From Azospirillum cavernae (GTDB taxonomy: Bacteria; Pseudomonadota; Alphaproteobacteria; Azospirillales; Azospirillaceae): a DNA stretch of 64,000 nucleotides. The notes under the pieces were generated by a model that was not told the origin of the DNA, did not search any database, and saw only the letters and a program-made list of their open reading frames with translations. A program made the translations under genes and the position numbers. The DNA is taken from contig NZ_QYUL01000001.1 in the NCBI RefSeq assembly GCF_003590795.1, positions 575,001 to 639,000 on the forward strand. The letters are read 5' to 3'. The first letter of the stretch is position 1. The number at the start of each line of letters is the position of its first letter. Positions 5,780 through 57,376 of this stretch are shown here, one piece after another.

Positions 5780-7374
5780 TGGCGGCATCCCCAATGGGAG
5801 CGGTTGGTCAGCGACACGGCGAGCGGCGCGCTTCCGCCAGCGACCTCGGCGGCGGAGCGGCGGGCGGTGGCCGGTTGGGCGAACAGCTCGCCATGGGCGC
5901 ATTTGCCGCCCGGCGCGACCGTGATTTGCGAGGCCGAATCCGACGCCACCCGCGCCCCGCCAAGGTCGAGCACCCCCGCCGATCTGGGCCGCGCGCCGTT
6001 CAGCCCGACCGCCGTCGCGGTCATCTCCAGCGCGCCGTTTTCCAGGACGACGCCGAATTGCGTGTCGCTTTCGGCCCCGACGTCGGCGCTGTCCAGAATG
6101 GTTTGCCCGCCGCCGGAGCGAATCGCCGCCATCGGCACGCCGCCGCGCCCGCGCACCCGCAAGCGGGGGCGCTGCCGTTCGCCGGAAAAGGTGACGGCGG
6201 CGCCCAGCGCGCTGACCAGCCCGGCGCGCCCGGTCCCGACCTGCGCCACCACGTCGGCGTCGCGGAACAGCGCCTCGCCCCCCGTCACCTGCACCCCGTC
6301 GCCGGTGTTCGAGGTCACGGTCAGGCTGCCGGTGACGTCGAGTCGGGCGTGATAGCCCTTCAGCGCCGGGCCGTTGGCGACGGAAATCGCGTTGGTTCCG
6401 GCGAAGCTCAGGCGGGTTCCCGGCATGGCTTCCACCGGGGTGTCGAAGGCGACGTTCTCCACCCGGATGTCGGTGGGCAGGCGGAAGGGCGCGCCGGTGG
6501 GAAGGCTGGCGATGACGACCCCGGCGGCCTCGCCCTGCAAGACCAGCCGCATCGTCCGCCCGCCGCCCGATCCGTTGGCCAACTGGTCGAGCAAGGCGGC
6601 GGGAACCTCGTGCCGACCCGGCGCGAGGCGCAGCGCCATGCCGTTGGGCTGGGTCGCCTGCCACAGCCCCAGGGCGGCGGTCAGCGACATGGCGTCGGCG
6701 GCGGTGGTGCCGCTGCCGTCGCCGGCTTGAGTCGGGGCGACGTGGCGGCGCACGGTGGCCGACGCGGCGACGGCGGCCAGATCGGCGGAGGATCCGCGCG
6801 TGACGCCCAACGCCGACCCGGCGGGCAGGGTGAGCTGCCCGTCCTTCATCGTCAGCCCGGCGCAGTCCGGCATTTTATCGGACCCAATGGCGGGCGCGAC
6901 GATGGCGGCGATGATCCCGGCCCGGGCGATCTCCGCCGGAGCCGCCGGGGCGCTCAAGACATAGTTGCGGGCGCCCGGCGCGCCATCTTGCGGCCAGGGC
7001 GTGGTGACGATGCTGGGGGAGATCTGATCGGGGGCGGGGGCGAAGACGCAATAGCCATAGGGAACGCCCCAGGGCGTTTGCACGCCCGGCATCAGCCAGA
7101 CCGGCAGTTCCGTCTTGCCGTCGGGCCGCTCCTTGGGCGCGGGGGCGTAGAGGGTGCCGTCGTTTTTCAGGGTGCGGAGGTTGGCCTCCACCAACGCGGC
7201 CAGCTTGTGCATCTGCCCGGCGCTGCGCTGGGCCTGGGCGATGCGGTCGGAGGATTGCACCAGCGTGAAGGCGGTGTAGCCCGTCGTCGCCACCAGCGAG
7301 ATCGCCATGATCGTGATGATGAGAAGGGAAACCATGGGCCGCCGTCTGTTGCCGCCGCCTGTCGCCGCCGTCAT
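5776..7374 (-). CDS. Membrane-anchored protein, possible right-handed beta-helix
   Basis: A 532-residue protein with a single N-terminal membrane helix (MVSLLIITIMAISLVATTGY, about residues 14-33) followed by a short coiled segment (SDRIAQAQRSAGQMHKLAALVEANL) as in pilin-like proteins. The C-terminal ~300 residues are rich in short Gly/Val/Thr strands (such as ISVANGPALKGYHARLDVTG) that look like stacked turns of a parallel beta-helix. No enzyme motif was recognised. It overlaps the ATPase gene by 4 bases (ATGA), so the two are probably translated together. It may be a large minor pilin or an adhesin tip. This is inference from layout only. Confidence 0.6.
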   Translation of the reverse strand: MTAATGGGNRRRPMVSLLIITIMAISLVATTGYTAFTLVQSSDRIAQAQRSAGQMHKLAALVEANLRTLKNDGTLYAPAPKERPDGKTELPVWLMPGVQTPWGVPYGYCVFAPAPDQISPSIVTTPWPQDGAPGARNYVLSAPAAPAEIARAGIIAAIVAPAIGSDKMPDCAGLTMKDGQLTLPAGSALGVTRGSSADLAAVAASATVRRHVAPTQAGDGSGTTAADAMSLTAALGLWQATQPNGMALRLAPGRHEVPAALLDQLANGSGGGRTMRLVLQGEAAGVVIASLPTGAPFRLPTDIRVENVAFDTPVEAMPGTRLSFAGTNAISVANGPALKGYHARLDVTGSLTVTSNTGDGVQVTGGEALFRDADVVAQVGTGRAGLVSALGAAVTFSGERQRPRLRVRGRGGVPMAAIRSGGGQTILDSADVGAESDTQFGVVLENGALEMTATAVGLNGARPRSAGVLDLGGARVASDSASQITVAPGGKCAHGELFAQPATARRSAAEVAGGSAPLAVSLTNRSHWGCRQ

Positions 7375-7513: not shown

Positions 7514-8191
7514 TTACATGTGCTTGAAATAGGCGACGTGCTTGCCGGTGTCGGCGCCCACGGCGATGGTGTTGGCCGCGCCGCCCAGGATGATGGTGGC
7601 GGTGGTGGTGCCGAGCGGCACGCAGAAATAGCGGTAGACCGCGCCCAGCGCGTCCAATTCCGCCTTGGTGGTGATGCCGCTGACGGCGACCGTCACGGCG
7701 TTGACCGTGATGTTGGCGAGGCCGGTGAAGCTGCTGGCGGTCGAGGCGACGTAGCCCGCCGACTTGGCGATTTCCAGACAGGCGTTGGCGCCGGTGGTGG
7801 AGGTCAGGACGGTGTAGATGCCGGTGTTGGTGGTTTCGTTGCCGGCGGCGGTGGCGCCGCCGGTGCCGGTGCTGTCGATCACGTAACCGGCGGCGGTCGG
7901 GCCGGTGCCGAAGGTGGTCGCGGTGTTGATGGCGGGCGGGTAGGAGGACATGTAGGTCGGCGGCGTGGCGCTGGTCAGCACCGTGGAGCTGGGCAACGAC
8001 GCGGTGGTGGTGTTGCCGTCGTTGCTCCACATCGTCCAGGCGGCGTCGATCTGCTCCATCGCGCTGAGCACCTGCACGGCTTGGGCCTTGGCGCTCATGT
8101 TGGTGAAGGCCGAGCCGGTGTAGAACACCCCGGCGGCGGCCATGAATCCAGAAATGGCGACCGCGACGACCACCGAAAGCAGGTTGAACAT
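7514..8191 (-). CDS. Pilin-like protein, probable major subunit of the locus
   Basis: A 225-residue protein starting MFNLLSVVVAVAISGFMAAAG, an immediate hydrophobic helix, followed by an amphipathic stretch (AQAVQVLSAMEQIDAAWTMW) and a Thr/Ala/Gly-rich body low in charge, as in type IVb-like pilins. Two cysteines (NACLEI and RYFCVPLG) could form the C-terminal disulfide loop common in pilins. There is no classical prepilin cleavage motif. AAGGAG lies 7 bases before the ATG, and a strong terminator follows, both consistent with high expression. The C-terminus HVAYFKHM is unusual. It could alternatively be a surface protein unrelated to pili. Confidence 0.65.
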   Translation of the reverse strand: MFNLLSVVVAVAISGFMAAAGVFYTGSAFTNMSAKAQAVQVLSAMEQIDAAWTMWSNDGNTTTASLPSSTVLTSATPPTYMSSYPPAINTATTFGTGPTAAGYVIDSTGTGGATAAGNETTNTGIYTVLTSTTGANACLEIAKSAGYVASTASSFTGLANITVNAVTVAVSGITTKAELDALGAVYRYFCVPLGTTTATIILGGAANTIAVGADTGKHVAYFKHM

Positions 8192-8558
8192 TCAGGCACT
8201 CCTTGTTGGGTCGTCACAGGGGGAACGTGTTTGGCCGCCGTTCGGCGTCCGCCGCGCTTTCCCTTCCGCGCCGCCATCCCGCAAGGGGGCGGCCCGGTTC
8301 GGACATGTCTTTGAACCGACTCAATGCCCAGAGTCGTTAAGGCATTCTAAATTTCGCTTTTAACGATTCTCAGTGACGACCGTCACAGGCTGGTCAAAAT
8401 GCTGCGGCATGCTGTCATGCGGGCGCAACAGATGGCTGCGACTCTTGACCGCAGTGCGGTAAGACTTGACGGGTATACAGATGAATGGAGTGATGTTTCC
8501 GCCGTCAGGGCCAACCGCAGACGACAACCGTCGCATAAGACAAAAGGGGAGGATCTCA
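8192..8558. other. Divergent intergenic region between the pilin-like gene and the stress protein gene
   Basis: About 370 bases holding the control sequences of two divergent genes. Short inverted repeats are visible: CGTTAA (near 8335) with TTAACG (near 8360), and GTGAC-N4-GTCAC at about 8373-8386. No confident -35/-10 pair, RpoN site or small gene was identified. Confidence 0.4.
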
Positions 8559-9380
8559 ATGCCTTACAAACACATCCTGGTTCATCTGGACTCCAGCCCG
8601 CATGTGGGCGCCCGTCTGGACGCCGCCGTCGCGCTGGCGACCAAGCATGGCGCGTTCCTGCGCGGCCTGTTCGCCCAGGGCGACCGCAACGCCACCAGCA
8701 TGATCGCCCGTCGTTCCAGCGACCATCTGACCGAGGCCGCCGTCAAAAGCGAGGCGATGTTCAACGAGGCGCTCGCGGCGTCGGGCCTGCGCGGCCAATG
8801 GCACGGCCTGACCCACGGCGAGCACAATCATGTGATTCGCGAGGCGATCATCTGGTCGCGATTCGCCGACCTGACCATCCTTGGCCAGTATGACCGCGAC
8901 GTCGGATCGGACGGCGCGCCGGAAGAGTTGAACGAGCAGGTTGTGCTGAACTCAGGCCGTCCGGTTCTGGTGATTCCCTACGCCGGAAACTTCCCGGTGA
9001 TCGGCAAGCGGGTCGCCGTGGCTTGGAACGCCGAGCGCGAAGCCGCCCGCGCCCTGTCCGATTCGCTGCCTTTCCTGGAAAAGGCGGACGAGGTGACGGT
9101 CATCACCGTTCTGACGCAAGCCGCGTCGGGCAACGCCGAATCGCCGCGCGTCGGTCTGCTCGATCATCTGGCGCTGCATGGCGTCACCGCCGAACAGACG
9201 CATTTCACCGTGAGCGACATCGGCGCGATGGACGCGCTGTTGGCCCGCACCATGGACACCGGCGCCGATCTGCTGGTGATGGGCGCGCATGGCCATTACG
9301 GCTTCCCGTTCCTGCACCGGGGCAGCGGAACCCGCCATGTCCTGCGCACCTGCCCGGTGCCGTTGCTGCTGTCGCATTGA
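8559..9380 (+). CDS. Universal stress protein, tandem UspA domains
   Basis: A 273-residue cytoplasmic protein with two UspA domains. The first begins YKHILVHLDSSPHVGARLDAAV. The second begins KRVAVAWNAEREAARALSDSLPF and ends with the nucleotide-binding motif G-x2-G-x9-G-S (GAHG, then GS in HRGSGTRHVL). The first domain lacks this motif, so only the C-terminal half is likely to bind ATP. ATG 8559 is chosen because a GGGGAGGA ribosome site precedes it and the family start MxYKxILVxxD follows; an in-frame ATG at 8466 lacks such support. It is a single gene with a hairpin after it. Confidence 0.92.
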   Translation: MPYKHILVHLDSSPHVGARLDAAVALATKHGAFLRGLFAQGDRNATSMIARRSSDHLTEAAVKSEAMFNEALAASGLRGQWHGLTHGEHNHVIREAIIWSRFADLTILGQYDRDVGSDGAPEELNEQVVLNSGRPVLVIPYAGNFPVIGKRVAVAWNAEREAARALSDSLPFLEKADEVTVITVLTQAASGNAESPRVGLLDHLALHGVTAEQTHFTVSDIGAMDALLARTMDTGADLLVMGAHGHYGFPFLHRGSGTRHVLRTCPVPLLLSH

Positions 9381-9410
9381 GCGTTGGCGCATTGAGCGTT
9401 GGCGCATTGA
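9373..9410. repeat. 15-base tandem repeat at the end of the stress protein gene
   Basis: CGCATTGAGCGTTGG occurs at 9373-9387 and again at 9388-9402, followed by a partial third copy to 9410. The first copy contains the stop codon of the stress protein gene, so the repeat restates the stop codon downstream. It looks like slippage. Confidence 0.8.
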
Positions 9411-9417
9411 TCGGGCG

Positions 9418-9445
9418 CCCCTCTCCCGAAAAACCGGGAGAGGGG
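9418..9445. terminator. Perfect hairpin between convergent genes
   Basis: CCCCTCTCCCG (9418-9428) pairs with CGGGAGAGGGG (9435-9445) around AAAAAC. It sits between the stop codons of two convergent genes and may act as a two-way terminator. The arm sequence belongs to the CCCTCTCCCG palindrome family that also appears at 19906-20060. Confidence 0.6.
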
Positions 9446-9456
9446 ATCCGCGTCGC

Positions 9457-10194
9457 TCAGATGCTGTAATTGTCGGCGATTTCCAGCCGCAGCTTTTCCA
9501 CCTGATCGCGGAAGACCGCGCCGTCGCGCCCGGCGTTGTTTTGGACGTCGCGGACCACCCGCGCCGGGGAACCGCCCAGCACGATGATGCGGTCGGCCAG
9601 ATGCACCGCCTCCTCCAGATCATGGGTGACGAACAGGATGGTCTTGCCGGTTTCCCGGTGAATCCGCCGCAATTCGTCCTGAAGATTGTTGCGGGTGATG
9701 GCGTCGAGCGCGCCGAACGGCTCGTCCATCAGCAGAATGTCGGGATCGACCGCCATGGCGCGGGCGATGCCGACGCGCTGGCGCTGGCCGCCCGACAGCT
9801 CGTAAGGCCAGCGGCGGGCGTAGCCGTCCAGCCGCACCAGCTTCAAGGCGTCTTCGGCCCGGCGCAGCCGGTCGGCGCGGCTGACCGGCAGACCTTCCAG
9901 ACCCAATTGCACATTCTTCACCACCCGGCGCCAGGGCAACAGGCGGGCGTCCTGGAAGACCAAACCAACCGGACGATGGGCCGGGCGTTGGTCCTGGTGG
10001 ATGATGACGTTGCCGCCGCGCGCCTTGTGCAGCCCGGCGACGACGCGCAGCAGGGTGGATTTGCCGACGCCCGACGGGCCGACGATGGCGACGAAGCTGC
10101 CGCGCTCCACCGACAGGGTGACGTCCACCAGAACCGGCGGCGCGTCGGCGCCATAGCCGATGGAGACGCCATCAAGATCAATCACCGCTGCCAT
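9457..10194 (-). CDS. ABC transporter ATP-binding protein, nitrate/sulfonate/taurine type
   Basis: A 245-residue ATPase of the SsuB/TauB/NrtD group that drives uptake of small anions. Walker A GPSGVGKST, Q-loop VFQDARLLPW, signature LSGGQRQRVGIARA, Walker B ILLMDEPFGALD and the H-loop FVTHDLEEAV are all present. ATG 10194 (MAAVIDLDGV) is used; it overlaps the permease stop by 13 bases, implying coupled translation. The order is binding protein, permease, ATPase. The nearby sulfate assimilation genes make an organosulfur substrate plausible. Confidence 0.93.
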   Translation of the reverse strand: MAAVIDLDGVSIGYGADAPPVLVDVTLSVERGSFVAIVGPSGVGKSTLLRVVAGLHKARGGNVIIHQDQRPAHRPVGLVFQDARLLPWRRVVKNVQLGLEGLPVSRADRLRRAEDALKLVRLDGYARRWPYELSGGQRQRVGIARAMAVDPDILLMDEPFGALDAITRNNLQDELRRIHRETGKTILFVTHDLEEAVHLADRIIVLGGSPARVVRDVQNNAGRDGAVFRDQVEKLRLEIADNYSI

Positions 10195-10934
10195 GACAAC
10201 ACCCGCGACTGCACCTGCATGAACAGGAAATCCGACACGCCGTAGAGCAGCGCGATCGTCACCATGTAGAGCACGACGATGTGCGTGGCCAAGAGGCCCG
10301 ACGCTTCCATCATCCGCATGCCCAAGCCGGAAATGCCAAAGAGTTCCGCCGCGACCACCGTCATCCAGCCTTGCCCCAGCCCGGCCCGCAGGCCCGCCAG
10401 GATGCCCGGCAAGGCGCCCGGCAGGATGATTTTGAACAGGCGCGGGATCAACCCGCCCTGTCCGAAGGCGTGGCCCAGCTCGATCAGATCCTTGTCCACC
10501 CCGCGCACGGCGGAATAGCTGGCGTAATAGTTGATCCAGAACACCGTCAGGGCGATCAGGAAGGACGCCGCGCCCTCGCTGACGCCGAACCAGATGATGG
10601 CGAAGGGAATCCAGGCGATGGCCGGGATCGGGCGCAGCATGCGCACGACCCAGGCCTGGAAGGCGTCCCAGATCGGCCACAGCGCCGCCGCCGTGCCGAA
10701 GCTGACGCCCAGGAACGCCCCCAACGACAGGCCGACGAGGTAGTGGGACAGGCTGGCGAGGACCATCTCCTGCCAGATGCCGCGCTGGAACTCGGCCAGA
10801 AAGGCGGCGGGAACCGCGCTGGGCGACGGAATCAGGCGGGCGGGGACGATGCCGCTCTGCGCCACCGCCTCCCAGCCCAGCAGGAAGGCGACGACGCCCA
10901 GCGCCGACAACGCCAAGGAATGTTGGATCTTCAT
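10182..10934 (-). CDS. ABC transporter permease, nitrate/sulfonate/taurine type
   Basis: A 250-residue inner-membrane protein of the SsuC/TauC group with about six membrane helices. The coupling-helix motif that meets the ATPase is recognisable as ELGHAFGQGGLIPRLFKIILPGALPGILAGLR (EAA-like loop). It starts 18 bases after the binding protein gene and overlaps the ATPase gene, so the three form one operon. The substrate cannot be read from the permease alone. Confidence 0.93.
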   Translation of the reverse strand: MKIQHSLALSALGVVAFLLGWEAVAQSGIVPARLIPSPSAVPAAFLAEFQRGIWQEMVLASLSHYLVGLSLGAFLGVSFGTAAALWPIWDAFQAWVVRMLRPIPAIAWIPFAIIWFGVSEGAASFLIALTVFWINYYASYSAVRGVDKDLIELGHAFGQGGLIPRLFKIILPGALPGILAGLRAGLGQGWMTVVAAELFGISGLGMRMMEASGLLATHIVVLYMVTIALLYGVSDFLFMQVQSRVLSWQR

Positions 10935-43904: not shown

Positions 43905-45770
43905 TCAATCCATCGCCAGATGGGCCAGATGCGGGGAGGCGGCTTTTACGACGGGCCAAGGGCCGGATGCGACCAGCCGCCCGGCGTCGAGGACGATGAC
44001 ATGGTCGGCGAACTGAACGGTCGATGGCCGGTGAGCGATCAGCACAATCGTGATGCTGGCCTTCAGAGTCTGCATCACGTTCAGGATGCGCTGTTCGGAT
44101 TCATGGTCAAGCGCGCTGGTCGCCTCGTCAAGAATCAACACATCCGGCCCCGACAGCAGCGCCCGCGCCAAGGCCAGCCGCTGGCGCTGACCGCCCGACA
44201 GCAAGGCGCCGCGATCACCCACCATGGTGTCGAGGCCCTGGGGAAGCGCCCGGACGAAATCGGCGGCGTCGGCCTGCTCCAGGGCCGCCCACAAGCGTTT
44301 ATCGCCGTCGCCGCCGCCGTTCGCCCGGCACGCGATGGCGAGATTGACCCGAACGCTGTCGCGGAACAGGAAGCTGTCCTGCGGCACATACCCGACGCGC
44401 CGCCGCCAGGACCGCCGCGCCGCGCCTCCGGCCACCGGCTGGCCGTCGATCAGCATCCGGCCCTGGTCTGGTTCGATGAGGCCGAGCAGCAGGTCGGCCA
44501 GCGTCGATTTTCCGGCGCCCGACCGCCCAACCAGGGTGGTGACGGCGCGCGCGGGCACGACCGTGTCGATGCCGGACAAGGCCCATGGGCCATCCGGGGT
44601 GTACCGGATCCCAACGCCGTCCAACCGCACCCCCTGCGTCAGCGCCGCCGTGTGGGACAGGTCGGCCGGTGGCGACGCGGCAGGCGTTTCCGAGTCCACC
44701 ATGTCGGTTCGGCAGCGGTTCAGAAGGTCAAGCACGGCGGCGTGGGCGGGCAGCGCGTGCAGCACGATCCGCCAAGCGTCCTGGATGCGCTGCGCCGTGG
44801 TGAGAAGCCGGGCGAAGGCCGCCATCAACACCAGGGTTCCGGCCAGTTCCATATCCAGAACCCGCACAGCGAACCAGACGGCGACCGCCGCCGCCGTTGC
44901 CGCCAACCCCTGCGTCACCGCGCGCGCCCATCCGGATTGGCGTTGAAACGCGATCATGTCGGCGCGGACGTCGCGCATGCGCGTTTCAAAAAGCCGGGCG
45001 CGCTCCGCCTCCAGCCCGATGGCGCGGATCACCCGCATGCCGGCCAGATCCTCCGACAAGTCGCGGTGCAGGGCTTGCATCCCGGCCACGGCTTGCCGCC
45101 CGAGTCGGTGGGCGTGGCGGCTCAATGGCCGCGACAGCGCCAGAGACAGGGCGCCCAGCGCCAGCGCCGCGCCGGTCATCGTAGGCGACAGCCGCAGCGC
45201 CACGGCCAACAGAACCGGGATTTCCACCGCCCAACCGGCGGAGCGGAGCAGGAATTCCAGACCGTTCGCGGCGCGTTGCGCCTCGCCGATCACCGCGTTG
45301 ACCACCTCCGCGCCAGCCAGCCGGTTGAAGGCGCGCCATTCCATCCCGGCGACCGCCTCGTGCAGTTGGCGGCGCAGATGGTCGACATAGCCGAGCCGCA
45401 GGCGCGCCACCCGATCCCCGCGCGCCGCGATCACCAGCGCCGCCGCCGCGACCAGGATCACATAGAGCGCCAACGCGCCTTCCAGCCCCAGAGGCGCCAG
45501 CCACAGATCGCCTTTTCCCGCTTGTCCGCCCCCAACCCCGACCATCGACAAAAGCGGCGCCAGCAGCAGCAGGCCCGCCCCTTCAGCCAGGGCGGCGATC
45601 ACGGTCAGCGCCGCCAGCCCCCCCAGCCGCCAACCGGCGAACGCGGCGACGTCATGGAGGAAGCGCGCGAATTCGCCGATTGGCGTCTTGGCGGCCAACC
45701 AGAGGCGGGGCAGATGGAACTGGAACAACGGCATGTTGGTTCGCGGCTTTCTGGCGGGCGGGCGGCGCAA
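43905..45770 (-). CDS. ABC exporter (fused membrane and ATPase domains)
   Basis: A protein of up to 621 residues. About six membrane helices (from WRLGGLAALTVIAALAEGAGLLLLAPLLSMV on) are followed by an ATPase domain with Walker [10 protein letters not shown], signature LSGGQRQRLALARALLSG, Walker B VLILDEATSALD and H-loop IAHRPS. It belongs to the exporter class that includes lasso peptide exporters (McjD) and lipid flippases. It lacks an N-terminal C39 peptidase domain. Next to the lasso cluster but divergent from it, it is the best candidate in the window for peptide export. First gene of the operon with GT41 and methyltransferase. ATG 45734 is an alternative start. Confidence 0.9.
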   Translation of the reverse strand: MRRPPARKPRTNMPLFQFHLPRLWLAAKTPIGEFARFLHDVAAFAGWRLGGLAALTVIAALAEGAGLLLLAPLLSMVGVGGGQAGKGDLWLAPLGLEGALALYVILVAAAALVIAARGDRVARLRLGYVDHLRRQLHEAVAGMEWRAFNRLAGAEVVNAVIGEAQRAANGLEFLLRSAGWAVEIPVLLAVALRLSPTMTGAALALGALSLALSRPLSRHAHRLGRQAVAGMQALHRDLSEDLAGMRVIRAIGLEAERARLFETRMRDVRADMIAFQRQSGWARAVTQGLAATAAAVAVWFAVRVLDMELAGTLVLMAAFARLLTTAQRIQDAWRIVLHALPAHAAVLDLLNRCRTDMVDSETPAASPPADLSHTAALTQGVRLDGVGIRYTPDGPWALSGIDTVVPARAVTTLVGRSGAGKSTLADLLLGLIEPDQGRMLIDGQPVAGGAARRSWRRRVGYVPQDSFLFRDSVRVNLAIACRANGGGDGDKRLWAALEQADAADFVRALPQGLDTMVGDRGALLSGGQRQRLALARALLSGPDVLILDEATSALDHESEQRILNVMQTLKASITIVLIAHRPSTVQFADHVIVLDAGRLVASGPWPVVKAASPHLAHLAMD

Positions 45771-47251: not shown

Positions 47252-47836
47252 ATGGACGCCTTTATCGGAGAAATCCGCATTTTCCCCTTTGGCTATATTC
47301 CGCAGGGTTGGCTCGCCTGCAATGGCGGGCAATACAATGTGCAGGACCATCAAGCGCTCTATAGCATCATTGGCAACACCTGGGGTGGCACAGCGATGCA
47401 GACCTTCAAGGTGCCCAACCTTGCGGGTTTCTGCGTGATGGGGCAGGGCACAGGCCCCGGCCTGTCGCCCCGGTCGTGGGGCGCCACCACGGTCGGCGCC
47501 AAGACGGCGACGCTCAACTCTGCGCAACTGCCCTCGCACACCCACACGCTGACCATCCAGGGAGCGGTTCCGGCCCAGGCATTGACGAACACCACGGCCA
47601 CGCCGACCGCCAACCAATCCTGGCTGGCTCGTCCGGTGCAGCCCAATTCCACGGGCGCCAACGCGGTGCCGGCCTACACCAAGGTCACAACCCCCAACAG
47701 CACCCTGCACCCCAACACCATCGCGCCCGCTTGCGGCATCGCGGCCGGCGCGGTGAGTCCGCACGAGAATCGGCAGCCTTACCTGACCATGGTGTTCGCC
47801 ATCAACGTTGACGGCGTATACCCGGTGCGGAACTGA
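47252..47836 (+). CDS. Phage tail collar domain protein 3
   Basis: A 194-residue third member: FIGEIRIFPFGYIPQGWLACNGGQYNVQDHQALYSIIGNTWGGTAMQTFKVPNLAGFCVMGQG shows the same collar domain, though the DLRGR motif is changed to NLAGF. Then LPSHTHTLTIQG and ENRQPYLTMVFAINVDGVYPVRN. It starts 15 bases after gene 2 and has GAGGGG upstream. The three proteins differ mainly in the middle segments, as expected for subunits of one assembly. Confidence 0.9.
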   Translation: MDAFIGEIRIFPFGYIPQGWLACNGGQYNVQDHQALYSIIGNTWGGTAMQTFKVPNLAGFCVMGQGTGPGLSPRSWGATTVGAKTATLNSAQLPSHTHTLTIQGAVPAQALTNTTATPTANQSWLARPVQPNSTGANAVPAYTKVTTPNSTLHPNTIAPACGIAAGAVSPHENRQPYLTMVFAINVDGVYPVRN

Positions 47837-47846
47837 TCTTTTGCCG

Positions 47847-48371
47847 GTGACGCCCAAACCAACCCTCGCGCCGCCCGCCCCTTGGGCGGCGCGAGGGTTC
47901 GCCTTGCGGACTGAAGCCGTTGAGGATGCTCCCTTTTTGTTGCGGCTCTACATGTCCGTGCGGATGGCGGAGCTGGAGCCGACGGGGTGGCCCGAGGCGA
48001 TGAAACACGCCTTCCTGACCTCCCAGTTCGCGTTGCAGACGCGCCATTACGCCGCCGCTTACGCCGATCCGGATTTCATGATCCTGACCTGCGGAGACGA
48101 ATCGGTCGGACGGCTGTATCTTGCCCACACCGACGCGGATTTGCGCGTCGTGGACGTGTCGCTGTTGCCGGAACGGCGGGGGGGCGGGCTGGGGCGCGCG
48201 CTTCTTCAGGCCGTGCAGGCGCGGGCGGCGGACGACGGGCGAACGGTGAGTCTGAGCGTGGACATGCGGAACCCGGCGCAAAATCTCTATCGCCGCTTGG
48301 GTTTCGTCGAGGATGGAACGGAAGGACCGTCCTGGCGTATGATCTGGCGCTCACCCACCCCGCCAGCGTGA
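47847..48371 (+). CDS. GNAT family N-acetyltransferase
   Basis: An acetyltransferase of about 174 residues. The fold starts at GFALRTEAVEDAPFLLRLYMSVRMAELEP, and the acetyl-CoA motif is VVDVSLLPERRGGGLGRALLQAVQARAADDGRTVSLSVDMRNPAQNLYRRLGFVEDG. The start is uncertain: GTG 47847, TTG 47808 (overlapping the collar gene) or TTG 47902 after the hairpin. It follows the collar genes and precedes the lasso precursor, so it could acetylate either product, but nothing in the sequence tells which. Confidence 0.88.
   Translation: MTPKPTLAPPAPWAARGFALRTEAVEDAPFLLRLYMSVRMAELEPTGWPEAMKHAFLTSQFALQTRHYAAAYADPDFMILTCGDESVGRLYLAHTDADLRVVDVSLLPERRGGGLGRALLQAVQARAADDGRTVSLSVDMRNPAQNLYRRLGFVEDGTEGPSWRMIWRSPTPPA
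47861..47899 (+). terminator. 16-base perfect hairpin after the third collar gene
   Basis: AACCCTCGCGCCGCCC (47861-47876) pairs perfectly with GGGCGGCGCGAGGGTT (47884-47899) around a 7-base loop, 24 bases after the collar gene stop. There is no T-run. It falls within the 5' end of the GNAT frame, so it could act as an attenuator, or it may show that the GNAT start is further downstream. Confidence 0.6.
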
Positions 48372-48522
48372 AGCCTGGGGCGCGTCAATCTGCATCCCCA
48401 ACGCGCAGGAATTGGCTCGGCGCCATCGGCGCTTGCCTTTTCCCCACCTTCCCGCATAAACTTGACGTTGACGCCTTATGGAAACGAAGGCTGGCAACGC
48501 CAAACGCCTTGAAGGTAGAACC

Positions 48523-48681
48523 ATGAATTCGCGTGACTCCTTGAATCCGGTGAATGCCGCGCCCGTTCTTGGCAAGAAGGCCTGGATGGCTCCGGAAATC
48601 CGCGATCAGGCCATCAAGAGCCTCACTGAAGCAAAAACCAACCAAACGAATGAAACGGATCCTTCTTTCGGCCCGTCGTAA
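48523..48681 (+). CDS. Lasso peptide precursor
   Basis: A 52-residue peptide. The leader has an aromatic-x-x-Pro motif (W21-x-x-P24 in KKAWMAPEI), the place where B1-type proteins bind, and a conserved Thr at the penultimate leader position (T35 in SLTE). Cutting after E36 gives a 16-residue core AKTNQTNETDPSFGPS: Ala1, acceptor Glu8 for an 8-membered-count ring, and C-terminal Ser16. By established knowledge lasso rings join residue 1 to Asp/Glu at 7, 8 or 9. AAGG lies 8 bases before ATG 48523; an in-frame ATG at 48478 is unlikely. The core codons are less GC-rich than the neighbours. The kinase gene follows after 52 bases. Confidence 0.82.
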   Translation: MNSRDSLNPVNAAPVLGKKAWMAPEIRDQAIKSLTEAKTNQTNETDPSFGPS

Positions 48682-48733
48682 CGCAGGTCTGTCTTCTGAT
48701 TTGTGTTGGTGTCGTTAATCGTAGAGATGATCG

Positions 48734-49645
48734 TTGTTTTACTATCGAGTCTGCGGTCTTGCCGTCGCATCCGATTTTCCTCTTCCAGGGATGGTGATCG
48801 CAGACGAGGTCTTGTCTCAGACGGATGTGCGCGTTCGGTGCGGCACGGCGCCAGCAGCGCTGGACGCCGCAATTCGGGTCGGGCCGACGTGGCAACTTGA
48901 CGACGCCGCTTTTCTGTTTCGGGTTCCACAAGTCGCGCGTTTCCTCGTCACGAATGGAAACGAGGTTGTCGTTGATCTCCACGCGTCGTCGACCACCACC
49001 GACGCCGCGCCCTTCCTGCTGGGCACCGCCTTCGGCGTCTTGCTTCATCAGCGCGGACAGCTTGTTTTGCACGCCGCCACCCTTTCGTATCGGGGCCGGG
49101 GGGTGGCCTTGTGCGGCGTCACCGGCGCCGGGAAATCCACCCTGGCGGCGGCGCTTTGCCAGGCGGGTTGTGATTTCGTTGGCGACGACGTCGCCGCCAT
49201 CCGCTTCGATGACGGCGGTGTGCCCACCATCCTGCCAGATGGGCGGCAGCACCGATTGTGGATGGACGCTGTCGAACAGCTTGCGCTGACCGATTGTCTG
49301 GGACCGCCAGTTCGACCATGCCTTAAAAAATTCCACGTTGATCCGCCGAGGATGGCGACGCAAGGACCGACGCCGCTAACCACGATCATCATCCTGCGGA
49401 AAGCGGATTCACCAGGTCGGTTCGATTTGACGCCGCTGGATCCTGTCGACGCCGCTGCGTTGGTGCGCGACGAGGTGTATCGCTCAAAGACGGCCAGCCA
49501 TCTGGGGCGCGACGCTGACCTGTTCCAGCAGATCGCCGCCTTGCTCGGTCGGGTTCGGGTTTTTCTGCTGGACCGCGCCATGGATTTCGCATTGCTGGAC
49601 GACACGGTCGCCGCTGTGCTCGCGCAGATCGACAAGGAGGTGTGA
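48734..49645 (+). CDS. HPr-kinase-like lasso peptide kinase
   Basis: A 303-residue protein of the HprK-related family that, in characterised clusters (paeninodin type), phosphorylates the C-terminal Ser of the lasso precursor. The kinase core shows His113 in VLHAATLSYRG, Walker A GVTGAGKST (128-136) and the GDD acid pair at 150-152. The N-terminal YYRVCGLAVASDFPLP segment is typical of these stand-alone kinases. The start must be TTG 48734, because a stop codon lies 6 bases upstream in frame and the next ATG is residue 20. The C-terminal Ser of the adjacent precursor fits its expected target. Confidence 0.88.
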   Translation: MFYYRVCGLAVASDFPLPGMVIADEVLSQTDVRVRCGTAPAALDAAIRVGPTWQLDDAAFLFRVPQVARFLVTNGNEVVVDLHASSTTTDAAPFLLGTAFGVLLHQRGQLVLHAATLSYRGRGVALCGVTGAGKSTLAAALCQAGCDFVGDDVAAIRFDDGGVPTILPDGRQHRLWMDAVEQLALTDCLGPPVRPCLKKFHVDPPRMATQGPTPLTTIIILRKADSPGRFDLTPLDPVDAAALVRDEVYRSKTASHLGRDADLFQQIAALLGRVRVFLLDRAMDFALLDDTVAAVLAQIDKEV

Positions 49646-50496
49646 TGCCGTCCGGGGGCAAGATCGTTTGGCTCGCCTCTTACATGAAATCAGGCAACAC
49701 ATGGCTTCGGTTGCTGATCGCCAATTATCTTTTCGCAGCCGACGCGCCAATCGACATCAACCGGATTGATCTGAACAGCCCTTATCCGGTTCGGAAGGAT
49801 TTTCTTGAGGAAAAAAGCATCGTTGATCCGAATCTGCTCAGCTTTGACGAAACAAACCTTCTCCGCTCCATCATTATGGAGGATTTTGTCCAGCGGTGCG
49901 ACAGGATCAATTGCATCAAGGTCCATGACAAACACGGCGTCACCATCGATGGCACGCCTCTCTTCGGGCGGGGGGACGCTTGGTCAGCGGTTTATATTCT
50001 CCGCGACCCGCGCGACGTGGCTGTATCGCTGGCGTTTCACTACAATGTGACGTTCGACCGCGCGATCAAGATGCTGAACAACCCCAAACAGCGGATCGCT
50101 GGATATCGTGGCAAATACGTCCCGCAGGTTGAGCAAGGGGTCAGCGATTGGAGCGCCCATGCCGCAAGTTGGGTCGACCAATCCGATTTTCCCGTCCATA
50201 TCCTGCGATTCGAGGATTTGCGGGCCAATCCTGTGGAGGCGTTCGGCGCGGTGGTCGCCTTTATGGGGCTTGAAAAGCGACAGGAACGGGTGGAGCGCTC
50301 CGTTCGCTTCAGCGATTTTACTGAGTTGCAACGTCAGGAGCGCCAATCCGGTTTCTCCGAACGCTCGTCGCGATCAACCGCGCCTTTCTTCCGATCCGGT
50401 CGGGTTGGAGCCTGGGCCAAGGTTCTGACCACGGCGCAGAGCGACGCCATCGCCGCCGCCCACCACCCGATGATGGAACGATTCGGGTATTTGTGA
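49645..50496 (+). CDS. Sulfotransferase domain protein
   Basis: A 283-residue PAPS-dependent sulfotransferase. The 5'-phosphosulfate loop is SYMKSGNTW at 12-20, the 3'-phosphate motif is ILRDPRDVAVSL around 118-129, and a catalytic-type His94 sits in KVHDKHG. ATG 49645 overlaps the kinase stop (TGATG) and has a perfect AAGGAGGTG ribosome site, so kinase and sulfotransferase are made together. The obvious peptide target is the lasso product, with Ser or Thr as acceptors (the core has four Thr/Ser besides the C-terminal one). PAPS can be supplied by the CysC domain of the cysNC gene. Confidence 0.9.
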   Translation: MPSGGKIVWLASYMKSGNTWLRLLIANYLFAADAPIDINRIDLNSPYPVRKDFLEEKSIVDPNLLSFDETNLLRSIIMEDFVQRCDRINCIKVHDKHGVTIDGTPLFGRGDAWSAVYILRDPRDVAVSLAFHYNVTFDRAIKMLNNPKQRIAGYRGKYVPQVEQGVSDWSAHAASWVDQSDFPVHILRFEDLRANPVEAFGAVVAFMGLEKRQERVERSVRFSDFTELQRQERQSGFSERSSRSTAPFFRSGRVGAWAKVLTTAQSDAIAAAHHPMMERFGYL

Positions 50497-50576: not shown

Positions 50577-50876
50577 ATGAACAACCCGACGGAAGCTTGC
50601 GGAACGCTTCGCCGCGCCGATGGCCTGCTGACCGCCGATGTCGACGGGGAACTGCTGATGATGAGCGTCGAGCAGGGCCGTTACTTCAATCTGAACTCCG
50701 TTGGCTCCCGCATCTGGGAACTGCTCGCGGCGCCGGTGGCGGTCGATGAGTTGGTGGACGCGCTGACCGCTGAATATGACGTGGCCCCCGACGAGGCCCG
50801 GCAGGAGGTCGAGCGTTTTCTGGGCGCGCTGCGCGAACGTGGCCTGCTCGTCACGGACAATGCGTCGGCTGCGTAA
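50577..50876 (+). CDS. PqqD-family leader-binding protein (lasso B1)
   Basis: A 99-residue RiPP recognition element of the PqqD fold. It runs ADGLLTADVDGELLMMSVEQGRYFNLNSVGSRIWELLAAPVAVDELVDALTAEYDVAPDEARQEVERFLGALRERGLLV, the standard three-strand/three-helix pattern. Such proteins bind the leader of the precursor and hand it to the B2 protease. GGAG precedes ATG 50577. The B2 gene begins inside its last codons (17-base overlap). Confidence 0.92.
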   Translation: MNNPTEACGTLRRADGLLTADVDGELLMMSVEQGRYFNLNSVGSRIWELLAAPVAVDELVDALTAEYDVAPDEARQEVERFLGALRERGLLVTDNASAA

Positions 50877-51396
50877 ACTCCTCGCCCTGCCGTTGGCGGA
50901 TCAGTGGCTGGCAGCGGAGGCGGCGGTCTGGTTGGCGTTGGCGCAGCTTCTGCTGGCGGTTTTGCCCTTCCGGTGGATCGCGATCAGCCTTGGTCCCCTG
51001 GCGCGTGAACGATCCGATGGAGCCGTCGCCCCGGTCGATCTGATTCGGCAGGCCCAAGTCCGGCGGATCGGTCAGACGGTTGAGCGAACCGCCCGCCATC
51101 TGCCATGGACCGCGCTTTGCTTGCCCCAGGCGCTCGCCGCCAGGGCCATGTTGGGCCGACGCGGCATTCCCGCCACCGTGCATTTCGGCATGGCTCTGTC
51201 CGATGACGAAACGACCGATCAAGAGGCGACTGAGGGCGGGCGGCGGATGCTGGCCCATGCCTGGGTGACGGTTGGCCGGACGGGGGTGGTTGGGACGCCC
51301 GCCGCCGGGCGTTTCGCTGTGGTCGCCCGCTTCACCCATGAAACGGGCAATCACGAAACGGGCAACCACGAAACGGACGGCCAAACCGTTGGGTGA
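50860..51396 (+). CDS. Lasso peptide leader peptidase (B2, transglutaminase-like)
   Basis: A 178-residue cysteine protease of the lasso B2 family that removes the leader. Cys87 lies in WTALCLPQALAARAMLGRRGIPATVHFG and His133 in LAHAWVTVG, the expected Cys-His pair and spacing. The usual acidic third residue about 12 positions after the His is not evident (VVGTPAAG). The C-terminus carries three copies of HETGN-like repeats (from 15-base tandem DNA repeats) that are not part of the family. ATG 50860 overlaps the B1 gene. The hydrophobic N-terminal stretch WLALAQLLLAVLPFRWIA is normal for the family. Confidence 0.9.
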   Translation: MRRLRKLLALPLADQWLAAEAAVWLALAQLLLAVLPFRWIAISLGPLARERSDGAVAPVDLIRQAQVRRIGQTVERTARHLPWTALCLPQALAARAMLGRRGIPATVHFGMALSDDETTDQEATEGGRRMLAHAWVTVGRTGVVGTPAAGRFAVVARFTHETGNHETGNHETDGQTVG

Positions 51397-51429: not shown

Positions 51430-53340
51430 TCAGTGATGTTGCCGAACATAGGAAATAAAGCGTAAAACACGCGGCGCCGTTTCCGCAACCTTGCGCAAAG
51501 CCCGGTCGCCACCCAATTCGCCCGAGCGGCGCAACGCCTCTTCCGGGGGCGGCAAGGCGCGCAAACGCTGTTCCAAAGCCTCCAGATCGAACAGCGCGTT
51601 GATCCGTGGGTGTCCGCGCAGGTCGGAAAGCTGACGGAGCAGCGTGTCGCGTTGCAGGGCGACGACCAGGGAGGCCTCGGGAAAAGGGGTATGTTTGGTG
51701 GAGTTTTTAAGGATCTTGTCCGGCAGGATTCCAATCATGGCGTCGCGGTACAGCCGCCGCGAAACACCGTCGCGCAGGAACAGCGCGCTTGGCAACGACA
51801 GCGCGAATTCGATCACCCGACGGTCGAGCAGGGGGAAAGCGGCGGCAATGCCGGTGCGGGCGCCCGTCAGCGCCCAATGTTCGGGCCGCCGCGTCAGAAC
51901 CGGCCCGTTCAGGAGGCGCAGACGATTGGCGACGGCGTTGGGGCGCATCGGCGGCGACGGCGGGGGGACGCCGCCCATCGCCTCGTTGCGCAACAGCAGC
52001 CTGATTGAGGTCATTGGCGCGCTGTCCCGCGTTCTGCCGAGCAGACTCCGGGCGAAGGTCTGAATGGCGTCTGGCAGCAGATAGTTCAGCACCTCGCCAC
52101 GCAGCGTATCCGTCATCAAACAGCCCCTGGCGACGGACACCGCCCGAATCTCGCGCGCGAACCTCCACCAGCGACCGGCGAGCAGCGCTTCGGCCAGGGC
52201 GCCGCGACCGTTGAAGGACGCCCCCTCATCGCCGCCCCACCCTGAAAGAAAAATCTGCGCGCCGCGCGCCGCCGCGTCCATGCAGATCCACGCGTTGGGA
52301 TCGGCGGGGTCGAACGGCAGGGGTTGATCGCAATCCATCCGGGGCAGCAGAAAATCCAGCGGAGGGCCAATGCGCGCGGGAATGCTGACGATGTCCGGTT
52401 CCTGGTCCAGCACCGTTTGGGCGAGCGGACCTTCGCCGTCCGGCGCATAGTCTCCCTGCGGCGTCGGCAGGAATGGGTAGGCGAGCAACGGGCGCCCCGT
52501 CGCGCGCAAGGCGCGGGCGGCGAGGACGGTGATGGAGGGGGAATCAAGCCCGCCGCTCAGGTGAGTCGCCACCGGCCCGGTTTCCGGCAGGCGGACGCGG
52601 ACCGCTTGCGTGACCAGCGCCGCCATCTCTTCGGCGGCCTCTTCCGGGCGGCAACGGTTTTGGCCTGCGGTCGCCGGGTCGAGCCGCCAATGCCGCCCGC
52701 TTTCCCGCCGACGCGCCGACACACGCGTCCACGCCCCCACCGGAAGCCGTTCAACGCCGCGAAGCACGGAGCGGTTGTTGGGCGTCCCGCGCATCAACAG
52801 CGTGCTCAGAAGGGCGGCTTCGTCGAGTTCCCGCGCGACGAAGCCGCTGGCGTTCAGGCCCCGAGGCAGCGAGGCGAAGGCGAACACCCGATCCGGTTGA
52901 TCGTTGATGAAGAGCGGTCGGACCCCCATGCCGTCACGGGCGCACAGCAGCGTTTGATCGCGCGGATCCCAAGCGGCCAGGGCGAAGTCGCCGAAAATGC
53001 CGCCAAGCCCTCCGTCGGACCCGTCAGCCTCCCGACGTTCCAGCGCGTTCAACAGCGCGGCCTCGTCGGTTTTTCCGTCGGCGCCTTCGTAGAGTCGAGC
53101 GTCAGCGGCCAGCACGAGACCGCTCGCGCCGCGCGGCAGGGCGGTGGCGGCGGGCGGGTCAACGCGCGGAATGGCGGCGGCTGGCGCAAATTCAAGCGTG
53201 GCGAGCGCCATCGGCCCTTCGACAAAACTCGCCACCGCAGGGGTCAGGCCCGACTCGATCATGGCGGCGACCATGGCGGCGAGCCGCCCGGCCTCAGCCG
53301 GTCGGCCGTCAAGATGGAGGAAGCCGCAGATCAACCGCAT
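51430..53340 (-). CDS. Lasso peptide cyclase (C, asparagine synthetase-like)
   Basis: A 636-residue ATP-dependent isopeptide synthetase that activates the side chain of the acceptor Glu/Asp and closes the ring with the new N-terminus. An N-terminal glutaminase-like domain (MRLICGFLHL, GIFGDFALAAWDPRDQTLLCARDGMGVRPLF) precedes the synthetase domain with PP-loop SGGLDS at 262-267. The rest (FLSGWGGDEGASFNGRG, AAFPLLDRRVIEFALSLP) matches AsnB/McjC proteins. It is encoded on the strand opposite to A-K-ST-B1-B2 and ends 33 bases from B2. Last gene of an operon with two oxygenase genes and an unknown gene. Confidence 0.92.
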   Translation of the reverse strand: MRLICGFLHLDGRPAEAGRLAAMVAAMIESGLTPAVASFVEGPMALATLEFAPAAAIPRVDPPAATALPRGASGLVLAADARLYEGADGKTDEAALLNALERREADGSDGGLGGIFGDFALAAWDPRDQTLLCARDGMGVRPLFINDQPDRVFAFASLPRGLNASGFVARELDEAALLSTLLMRGTPNNRSVLRGVERLPVGAWTRVSARRRESGRHWRLDPATAGQNRCRPEEAAEEMAALVTQAVRVRLPETGPVATHLSGGLDSPSITVLAARALRATGRPLLAYPFLPTPQGDYAPDGEGPLAQTVLDQEPDIVSIPARIGPPLDFLLPRMDCDQPLPFDPADPNAWICMDAAARGAQIFLSGWGGDEGASFNGRGALAEALLAGRWWRFAREIRAVSVARGCLMTDTLRGEVLNYLLPDAIQTFARSLLGRTRDSAPMTSIRLLLRNEAMGGVPPPSPPMRPNAVANRLRLLNGPVLTRRPEHWALTGARTGIAAAFPLLDRRVIEFALSLPSALFLRDGVSRRLYRDAMIGILPDKILKNSTKHTPFPEASLVVALQRDTLLRQLSDLRGHPRINALFDLEALEQRLRALPPPEEALRRSGELGGDRALRKVAETAPRVLRFISYVRQHH

Positions 53341-53374: not shown

Positions 53375-53752
53375 TCAATTGAGCGACCCGTCAAAGTCGA
53401 TGTCGACATAATGCGGCGGCGCCCAACTGTTCTGATCCGGCGTCCGGGCGTCGCGTTCCAGGCTGGCGCTGGGTGACGCGAAAGGTTCAGCGCGTTCCTG
53501 CGGCAACAGGATCAGGTCGGCTTGCCAATGGGGCATCGCCTCAACCGGAGACGACGGCGCGCTGTCCGTCGCGTCGCCGACCAGAAAGCGCAGAGCGGCG
53601 TCGAATCCCGGAGTCTCGCCTTTGGTCAGTCGCCCATGAACAAAGCCGCGCGCGCGCAAATAGGCGTCGACGTCGATGTGTTCGGCAACGCCCGCCTCGG
53701 CGTGGATCACCGCGTCGGCGAGGGGGCCTCCCACATAAGCGGACGGGATCAT
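53375..53752 (-). CDS. Unknown 125-residue protein of the lasso operon
   Basis: No domain was recognised. The N-terminal half looks folded (DAVIHAEAGVAEHIDVDAYLRARGFVHG, with FDAALRFLVG), and the C-terminal half is rich in Pro/Ser/Glu and ends PPHYVDIDFDGSLN. Its start overlaps the oxygenase stop (ATGA) and the cyclase gene follows after 34 bases, so it is surely part of the operon. It may be an adaptor for the oxygenase or the cyclase. It is too long and lacks the leader motif for a lasso precursor. Codon use is like that of its neighbours. Confidence 0.6.
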   Translation of the reverse strand: MIPSAYVGGPLADAVIHAEAGVAEHIDVDAYLRARGFVHGRLTKGETPGFDAALRFLVGDATDSAPSSPVEAMPHWQADLILLPQERAEPFASPSASLERDARTPDQNSWAPPHYVDIDFDGSLN

Positions 53753-54378
53753 GACGTGCGACGGCTCCGGTACCAGCAGTTGATGGCGAAACGCTGGTCC
53801 CTGAACGCGCCGGACGGGCAGGCGACCGGGCGCACCTCGTGGGGCGCCCAGGAGGGGAACAGCAGCAGCATGTCCTGTTCTGGCGTGATGTCCAGGAACT
53901 GTCCACCCTGTTCGGGCGGCAGGATGGAATGCAGCCGCAATTCGCCGCCGCTGTAGCTTTTGGGTTCGGCGTGGAAATAGTGCACGCCGGTCAAGGCCCG
54001 ATCCGTCGTTTTGTCGGACGGGCCGGTTCGCGTGTCGATGTGCCGTCGGTAGAACGCGCCATCGCCATGGGCGACAAGCTCAATCTCCAACCGACCCAAA
54101 TCGAAAGATGACAGGCGCAGATCGGCGACGGTCGGATCCATGACCGACAGAAAACGCGCCTCCAACGCGTCCCGCAGCGATCCGAAATCCCGCAGAACCC
54201 GTGAGACGCGCATCTCGGGATTGATTTTCCTGTCGCCAACCCCGGTGGGCCTGAAGGTGTCCCGGTTGGCTTCGGCGTGAGCCAGCAACTGGCCGATCAA
54301 ATCGGAGCCGAGAAAATTGCGGATCACCCGGTGGGGGGCGGGCTGCTCGAAAGCGCGCAGGGCGGGGGCGGTGCTCAT
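53749..54378 (-). CDS. 2-oxoglutarate/Fe(II)-dependent oxygenase
   Basis: A 209-residue oxygenase of the prolyl-4-hydroxylase-like (2OG-FeII_Oxy) group. The iron ligands are His113-x-Asp115 (RRHIDTRTG) and His180 (SWAPHEVRPV), and Arg196 (FRDQRFAINCWYR) would bind 2-oxoglutarate. The strand GGELRLHSILP precedes the distal ligand as expected. It is translationally coupled to the unknown protein and shares an operon with the lasso cyclase. Hydroxylation of the lasso peptide or of another protein is plausible. Confidence 0.9.
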   Translation of the reverse strand: MSTAPALRAFEQPAPHRVIRNFLGSDLIGQLLAHAEANRDTFRPTGVGDRKINPEMRVSRVLRDFGSLRDALEARFLSVMDPTVADLRLSSFDLGRLEIELVAHGDGAFYRRHIDTRTGPSDKTTDRALTGVHYFHAEPKSYSGGELRLHSILPPEQGGQFLDITPEQDMLLLFPSWAPHEVRPVACPSGAFRDQRFAINCWYRSRRTS

Positions 54379-55894: not shown

Positions 55895-56689
55895 ATGCGG
55901 TCCTTGCTTTCCGGCCTTGGGCCGGACGATGTTCGTCTCGATCCTTTTCCCCATTTGGTTGTGCCGAACGCGCTGGACGAGGAGACGCACCAGCGGCTCA
56001 GCGAGACGTTTCCGCCCTTTTCGATGATCGGTTGGGCGGGTAAGGCCACGCCGCGCAGCAACTGCCGCTTTCAACTGTCGGCGTGGCAGATCATGGAAAT
56101 GACGCCGCTACCTGACATATGGAAGGCGTTCGTCGGCCATCACAGCGCGCCCGCCTTTTTTGCGGAGGTGGTGGCTCTGTTCCGCGATCATTGGCCGACG
56201 GCTCTCAAAGAGGCGCTGGGCGGCGATCTGCTGAACCATTCGATGGGGCTGATGATGCGCGACAGCTTCAATGAGGCGCGCATTCTTCAAGACGCGCGGG
56301 CCGAGATCAACACGCCGGTTACGACCGTCCCCTCCACCTCGCGGGGGCCGCATCTTGACATGCCAAATCGGCTTTTTACGTGTCTTTACTATCTTCGCCA
56401 TCCCGATGATGACGCGGTGGGGGGTGATTTGGAGCTGTTCCGTTGGAAGAATGGCCCGATCTCCAACACGGAGACATACGCGCTGCCGGGTGATTCGGTG
56501 GAGGTCGCCGCTGTCGTTCCCTACCAGGCCAATCAGATGGTGATCTTTCCGCAGGGGATCGACGCGATCCACGGCGTCAGCGTCCGCCATCCGACGCCTC
56601 ACACCCGCCGTTACGTCTTCATCAGCGCCGAGATTGAGCAAAACTGGCTGGTGTCGCCTGCGGCGGCGACAGTGTCCGGGGAGGGGTGA
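55895..56689 (+). CDS. 2-oxoglutarate/Fe(II)-dependent oxygenase, second type
   Basis: A 264-residue oxygenase. Iron ligands are His153-x-Asp155 (RGPHLDMPNRLFTCLYYLRHP) and His226 (GIDAIHGVSVRHP), with Arg238 or Arg239 (TPHTRRYVFISAEIE) for 2-oxoglutarate. It is divergent from the TPR oxygenase gene across 190 bases and is followed without gap by a sulfotransferase-like gene. GGAGATGAGG lies before ATG 55895. Together with the operon on the other strand it gives the region three oxygenase-type proteins. Confidence 0.9.
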   Translation: MRSLLSGLGPDDVRLDPFPHLVVPNALDEETHQRLSETFPPFSMIGWAGKATPRSNCRFQLSAWQIMEMTPLPDIWKAFVGHHSAPAFFAEVVALFRDHWPTALKEALGGDLLNHSMGLMMRDSFNEARILQDARAEINTPVTTVPSTSRGPHLDMPNRLFTCLYYLRHPDDDAVGGDLELFRWKNGPISNTETYALPGDSVEVAAVVPYQANQMVIFPQGIDAIHGVSVRHPTPHTRRYVFISAEIEQNWLVSPAAATVSGEG

Positions 56690-57376
56690 ATGAGGATTCT
56701 GGTTTACGGCATGCAGTCGAGCGGCTCGACCGCGTTCACGCTGTTCCTGGCGCAACGATCGGATTGTTTGGCGCTGGTCGATGTCCCCAACAATTTCGCG
56801 GCGCCCCGCATCGTTACCGACCTGGACATGGTGACGAAGGTGGTCGTGACCACGGCCTATCCTCTGGCCGTGCATCTTGAGCGTTTTCGTCCTGACCGGG
56901 TCATTCTGCTGTTGCGGGATCCCCGTGACAATTATGTCAGCCTGCGCACCAAGGGATACCGGAACTACTCCGGCTTGATCGACGAGAAATTCCTGATCCT
57001 GGATCAGATGTTCGCCGAGCGCGAACGCTTTGACGCCGTCATCGAATATGAGGATTTTGTCGCGCGGGATCCGGCTGTGCTTGAGACGATCCGGGCGCTT
57101 GGCTGGCCGGTGGAGGATGATTTCTACAACTACCGGCGCCGCCACAACGAAATGCTGGCGGCGCTGTGGCAGCATGTTCCTGATCTGATGCCGGACTTTG
57201 AGTTCGTGTTCGGCAATGTCCGTGGCGCGGAAGTTTCAAACCGTTTTGTCGGGCAGACCCGCGACGAGGAACTGGACGCCAAGTTGGAAAAACTGTGCCC
57301 CCGCTTGCTCGCCCATTACCGGGCGCGCCCGCTGACTGGCGTTAGGGCAGATCGCGTTAAATCGGGATCAATGTGA
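56690..57376 (+). CDS. Sulfotransferase-like P-loop protein
   Basis: A 228-residue protein with a sulfotransferase-type nucleotide loop (MRILVYGMQSSGSTAFTLFLAQ) and the 3'-phosphate motif VILLLRDPRDNYVSL. The loop SSGSTA differs from the usual KSGTTW, but the rest of the fold (VIEYEDFVARDPAVLETIRALGWP near the middle) is typical of bacterial sulfotransferases. It starts directly after the stop of the oxygenase gene, so the two act as a pair. It is clearly different from the sulfotransferase at 49645-50496. Confidence 0.82.
   Translation: MRILVYGMQSSGSTAFTLFLAQRSDCLALVDVPNNFAAPRIVTDLDMVTKVVVTTAYPLAVHLERFRPDRVILLLRDPRDNYVSLRTKGYRNYSGLIDEKFLILDQMFAERERFDAVIEYEDFVARDPAVLETIRALGWPVEDDFYNYRRRHNEMLAALWQHVPDLMPDFEFVFGNVRGAEVSNRFVGQTRDEELDAKLEKLCPRLLAHYRARPLTGVRADRVKSGSM

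Follow-up and report, generated by a model that had tools for sequence, protein, structure and literature searches.

Known lasso peptide kinases mostly act on the C-terminal Ser of the linear precursor (PMC9266682, PMC8498205) and need a His-Lys-Asp-Asp motif (PMC9266682), and tailoring is assisted by B1 proteins (PMC10368454). The closest described systems, paeninodin, ThcoA-ThcoK and SyanA-SyanK, combine an HprK-type kinase carrying this motif with a precursor that ends in Ser (PMC9266682, PMC8498205), and in BsfA/BsfK of Bradymonas an HprK-like kinase helped by B1 modifies the precursor before leader removal (PMC10368454). A 2OG-Fe oxygenase within a lasso cluster is known from canucin A (CanE, PMC9266682), and a putative sulfotransferase gene has been noted beside lasso clusters of Firmicutes, according to the passage of PMC8498205 that cites Zhu et al. 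2016. Lasso B2, PqqD, Asn synthase, two sulfotransferases and an aspartyl beta-hydroxylase also appear as consecutively numbered orthologue clusters in a gene list for Pontixanthobacter and Allopontixanthobacter (PMC10040529). The locus described below shares the kinase motif and the terminal Ser with the first three systems, a probable B1-assisted modification of the linear precursor with BsfA/BsfK, and oxygenase genes with canucin A.

The locus lies in a 64,000-nucleotide stretch of DNA (the window) from a soil-type alphaproteobacterium, and its precursor gene A is an ORF of 52 aa at 48523-48681 (+). Translation of 48520-48690 (+) reads MNSRDSLNPVNAAPVLGKKAWMAPEIRDQAIKSLTEAKTNQTNETDPSFGPS, then a stop, with Met1 at 48523; residues 1-36 form the leader and residues 37-52 the core, AKTNQTNETDPSFGPS. 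An earlier note had placed the core at 48631-48678 (+), which proved exact: these are the first base of codon 37 and the last base of codon 52. The leader features it named were also found, namely W21-x-x-P24 and Thr35 at position -2, as were Ala37 and Glu44 (core Glu8). The W21xxP24 motif and T35 agree with the class II lasso leader, defined by W/YxxP plus Thr at -2. The precursor matched no model in Pfam or NCBIfam, which is consistent with the view that the core is undescribed, a comparison that stops short of every published core. It is not a chance ORF, since three other loci (L048, L049 and L050) have, at the syntenic position, a homologous ORF whose start coincides with it. The gene encodes a new lasso precursor, and the cluster around it is a variant of the kinase type with heavy tailoring; we consider it quite likely that this cluster directs the synthesis of a phosphorylated, probably sulfated lasso peptide with an Ala1-Glu8 ring around the tail TDPSFGPS.

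The precursor gene is the first of an operon whose further genes, on the same strand, encode an HprK-type kinase, a sulfotransferase, PqqD (B1) and B2, and the cyclase gene is convergent. The kinase K (48734-49645, +) carries His113, GVTGAGKS at residue 128 and Asp-Asp 151-152 (VGDDV at 149), that is, the His-Lys-Asp-Asp motif (H113, GAGKS, DD), and its best NCBIfam model was HprK_rel_A with 46 bits against a cut-off of 200. The PqqD-type leader-binding protein B1 (50577-50876, +) matched NF033536 (lasso_PqqD_Bac) with 84 bits (cut-off 80), and the transglutaminase-like protease B2 (50860-51396, +), the single match in the whole genome, reached 70 bits for NF033537 (cut-off 33) and has Cys85 and the His of AHAWV. 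The Asn-synthase-type isopeptide cyclase C (51430-53340, -; PF00733, E 1e-24) contains the SGGLDS ATP motif; its best NCBIfam match was the lasso cyclase (E 6e-57), yet with 194 bits against a cut-off of 525, and it matched solved structures weakly. With C counted as the putative cyclase, the lasso gene set A, B1, B2 and C plus kinase is complete, with catalytic motifs present, and sequence matches assign most of the enzymes to known fold families. Beside it, a remnant gene of 125 aa (53375-53752, -) has lost the central part and retained both ends of its homologues, which measure about 280 aa and are full length in L049, L050 and L078; L048 is similar to the window, and a Pfam search of a full-length homologue gave no match. 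Further out, an ABC exporter with membrane and ATPase parts (43905-45770, -) is a candidate for export of the product.

A search of 60 relatives for the precursor turned up no copy beyond the source genome, so homologues were reached via the kinase and PqqD. The PqqD scan of genome contigs yielded L048 and L049, both from Niveispirillum sp. SYP-B3756, and L050 from an alphaproteobacterial MAG, with PqqD proteins 96%, 81% and 82% and precursors 96%, 59% and 65% identical to those of the window, respectively. In all three the precursor stands at the equivalent place and is followed by kinase, sulfotransferase, PqqD and cyclase genes. B2 is absent from the equivalent place in L049 and L050; L050 has a second lasso set (7776-10926; B2, cyclase and a precursor ending SPSPSGS) directly behind the first. 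The same four genes are syntenic with a precursor in L078, a Hyphomicrobiales replicon from tomato rhizosphere, and kinase searches over genus, class and phylum gave further loci, with related cores recognisable in three (L086, L129 and L132). The homologous cores read QKTNQTNETDPAFGPS (L048), AKSNSPNESSPNTGPVS (L049), AKSLSPSESSPNTGPS (L050), GKAFANPTEASPATGS (L078), GKTAEHPIESFFTGPS (L086), AKTTVAPIESGTAVGPS (L129) and GKTFVDPTESHSSFSGGGGKNYGPS (L132). The L048 precursor (5947-6105) is near-identical to that of the window, the differences including Gln for Ala at core position 1 and Ala in place of Ser12. Between L048 and the window the core enzymes are about 93-96% identical although the genus name (Niveispirillum) differs, which may indicate a recent transfer.

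Alignment of the window precursor with these seven homologues, some from outside the class, left M1, P24, T35, K38, E44, G50 and S52 invariant. The ring and the leader/core boundary put forward in the earlier note are supported by this comparison: no homologue lacks Glu or Asp at residue 44, and Glu44 is found in all eight sequences. Asp10 was ruled out as ring acceptor, being Ser in L049 and L050. The ring would comprise 8 residues in the window lineage and 9 in the more distant homologues. Candidate precursors were then gathered beside cyclase, kinase, sulfotransferase, B1 or B2 genes, with an aromatic-x-x-P motif as the sole criterion, and were hand-cleaned and joined by six found earlier; 43 could be placed with Thr at -2, and seven without Thr in the expected range were excluded from the acceptor test. 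Asp or Glu stood at core positions 7-9 in 37 of the 43 precursors (mean of 20,000 shuffles 11.6, maximum 23) and at positions 8-9 in 35 (mean 8.0, maximum 19, likewise 20,000 shuffles), and these shuffle numbers do not amount to exact probabilities because the precursor set includes related loci. The ring rule did not hold in the Thr(-2) register for three L130 precursors, L085 and two near-identical precursors of L157 and L158. The Ala1-Glu8 ring, as a prediction from sequence, is well supported because E44 and T35 are invariant and the acceptor count lies far above the shuffled mean.

The first core residue is not fixed. At residue 37 the eight aligned sequences have A, Q or G, with Gln in the nearest relative, L048, and core residue 1 among the 43 was G in 13, A in 9, T and N in 6 each, I, S, Q and V in 2 each and M in 1. 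The paeninodin core also begins with Ala. Since Lys38 is invariant whereas residue 37 varies, cleavage might occur one residue later, producing Lys1 and a 7-residue Lys1-Glu7 ring (computed [M+H]+ of the cyclised Lys38-Ser52, 1604.719). We hold this to be highly improbable, as it would put Thr at -3, L078, L086 and L132 read T-E-G-K with Gly at the Ala37 position, which makes the usual Gly core residue 1, and the Thr(-2) register is the one that yields a ring of 8 or 9 in most precursors. For the preferred product, cyclised Ala37-Ser52, the computed [M+H]+ is 1675.756, or 1755.722 for the phospho form, 1755.713 for the sulfo form and 1835.679 with both groups. The cyclised L048 core, with ring closure on Gln1, has a computed [M+H]+ of 1716.782.

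Phe13 had been proposed as a possible plug; as a conserved plug it was rejected, since Thr replaces it in L049 and L050, and neither these two nor L078 have an aromatic or other bulky residue in the tail. Because several relatives' tails hold small residues only, the bulk needed to hold the tail in the ring may come from phosphate and sulfate groups. These tails, together with the divergence of the cyclase from the curated lasso model and the variable core residue 1, would also suit a peptide that is cyclised but unthreaded (branched-cyclic), or only leader-cleaved and modified, the cluster then belonging to a RiPP family that derives from lasso peptides and makes a different end product. We regard such an outcome as unlikely, given that A, B1, B2 and C are all present and that the ring size is conserved at 8 or 9, a range that permits threading. 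We retain a threaded peptide as the predicted product. C-terminal Ser was found in 39 of 44 precursors collected without constraint on the last residue, and this nearly universal Ser fits, by analogy, the known lasso kinases.

The gene after the kinase encodes a PAPS-type sulfotransferase (49642-50496, +; PF00685, 77 vs 22 bits), shares 4 bases with the kinase gene and contains the motifs SYMKSGNTW and LRDPRDVAVS. Compared with solved proteins, it matched Teg12 best, followed by SULTs, with StaL further down. Teg12 and StaL are responsible for the sulfation of glycopeptide antibiotics. The core hydroxyls at position 3 and directly after Glu (Thr9/Ser9) are retained in the four closest sequences; Ser12 is not essential as a sulfation target, because L048 has Ala there. 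Sulfation of a core hydroxyl by the coupled sulfotransferase is predicted as probable. Further along lie a 2OG-Fe(II) oxygenase gene that is conserved with the cluster (53749-54378, -; PF13640), a putative one with a long N-terminal region that is conserved in L048-L050 (54421-55704, -; PF13759), and a third (55895-56689, +) followed by a gene for a sulfotransferase-like protein (56690-57376, +; weak PF13469). The latter pair (55895-57376) recurs beside other lasso clusters, in L086, L090, L093, L118 and L124.

The sulfotransferase and oxygenases might instead serve another substrate, e.g. a lipid, a glycan or the collar proteins described below, leaving the peptide phosphorylated only. To our knowledge no sulfated lasso peptide is known, and in the open-access literature we found neither a report of one nor a sulfated product of the Firmicutes sulfotransferase clusters or of the kinase-sulfotransferase type; moreover, GNAT, collars and oxygenases could belong to a separate unit next to the cluster. 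This explanation is a serious contender that we nevertheless judge the less probable one, in view of the overlap between the sulfotransferase and kinase genes, the retention of the kinase-sulfotransferase pair in many diverged lasso loci and its presence in L049 and L078, where no collar gene was seen in the stretch searched. We accordingly keep the peptide as the probable substrate of the sulfotransferase.

Upstream of the precursor lie three tail-collar genes (PF07484; 46015-46641, 46676-47236 and 47252-47836, all +), recurrent cluster neighbours of uncertain membership, and a GNAT acetyltransferase-like gene that accompanies them (47808-48371, +). The triad accounts for three of the eight collar domains in the genome. 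The GNAT and collar HMMs were mixed owing to overlapping reading frames, so they were read as one collar/GNAT module, and the separate names come from gene-table annotation. Within the genus, the 12 genomes with a strong kinase match are the same 12 that carry a triad of ~185-aa collars (Fisher p 4.5e-10, uncorrected for ancestry), and an additional genome carries two collars of larger size but not the kinase. Among 289 genomes of the class, 18 had the kinase, 16 a collar match and 11 both (p 5e-12, also uncorrected for ancestry). Kinase and collar are close together in most genomes of the genus, from gene tables read by eye, and on different contigs in G032. The triad and GNAT also recur by kinase-type lasso clusters in many distant genomes (L081, L085-L090, L093, L096 and L117-L122, for example). 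Several loci speak against the link being strict. Among the closest relatives of the window cluster, L048 keeps the GNAT gene with no collar gene seen in the stretch searched, and the 5.9 kb upstream in L049 show neither; collar genes were not seen either in the stretch searched at L078, L079, L083, L084, L091 and L092.

In the Tistrella-type genomes G077, G206 and G304, candidate precursors such as WQRPQLTVLDVTDNTIAGGPVVVNDGLGNAS, which had been filtered for a final Ser or Thr, adjoin collar genes with no cyclase nearby. Lasso-like candidates adjoin collar genes at L160, L161, L162, L164 and L165 as well, some with only PqqD; the lack of a nearby cyclase at these loci suggests biosynthesis in trans. 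Membership of the collar genes and cluster in a prophage was rejected, as distant blastn against phages gave 2% coverage, located in the first collar gene among the matches listed, and neither the kinase nor the sulfotransferase matched a PHROG. A role of the GNAT protein as acetyltransferase of the invariant core Lys2 was not adopted either, as GNAT accompanies collars where cores have no Lys.

The kinase-sulfotransferase-collar association is the most surprising part of the analysis, and no open-access literature joining lasso peptides and tail collars was found. We tentatively suggest, while considering it doubtful, that a large family of lasso peptides, phosphorylated and often sulfated, has dedicated partners in the collar triad and GNAT and forms one functional unit with them; the locus would then be a member of a so far unrecognised lasso-collar system. 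As to biological role, the collar proteins could for example be secreted and serve as scaffolds that bind or display the lasso peptide.

Taken together, biosynthesis probably proceeds as follows. The PqqD-like B1 would bind the 52-aa precursor through W21-x-x-P24, and the HprK-type kinase would phosphorylate the C-terminal Ser16 of the still linear precursor, a site we infer from the conserved terminus. At this linear stage the translationally coupled sulfotransferase would probably sulfate a core hydroxyl, and the 2OG oxygenases might hydroxylate the peptide. B2 would then cleave after Glu36, and the cyclase would close the ring between the amine of Ala1 and the side chain of Glu8, with the tail presumably threaded through it.

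From the core follow an exact mass that can be tested and a clear prediction of tailoring by two enzymes, one adding phosphate and the other sulfate to the same lasso peptide. The many residues apparently tolerated at core position 1 in this family may be useful for lasso cyclase engineering, and the collar link, if functional, would imply an unsuspected role for lasso peptides and for stand-alone bacterial collar proteins.

Set against paeninodin, ThcoA-ThcoK and SyanA-SyanK, the present cluster differs in its core, in having additional 2OG oxygenases and a convergent cyclase gene, and in the coupling of a sulfotransferase gene to that of the kinase. The target of BsfK is Ser3, in a core that has Ile at -2 and terminates in Asp (PMC10368454), whereas the precursor here has Thr(-2) and a C-terminal Ser. 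CanE hydroxylates the C-terminal Asp (PMC9266682), and the window holds several putative oxygenases. The genes of Pontixanthobacter and Allopontixanthobacter are listed only as co-occurring with salt tolerance, not as a peptide cluster (PMC10040529). In the Firmicutes clusters, as the relevant passage of PMC8498205 describes them, the sulfotransferase gene stands at the cluster start, whereas here it directly follows the kinase gene, in Alphaproteobacteria and other Pseudomonadota.
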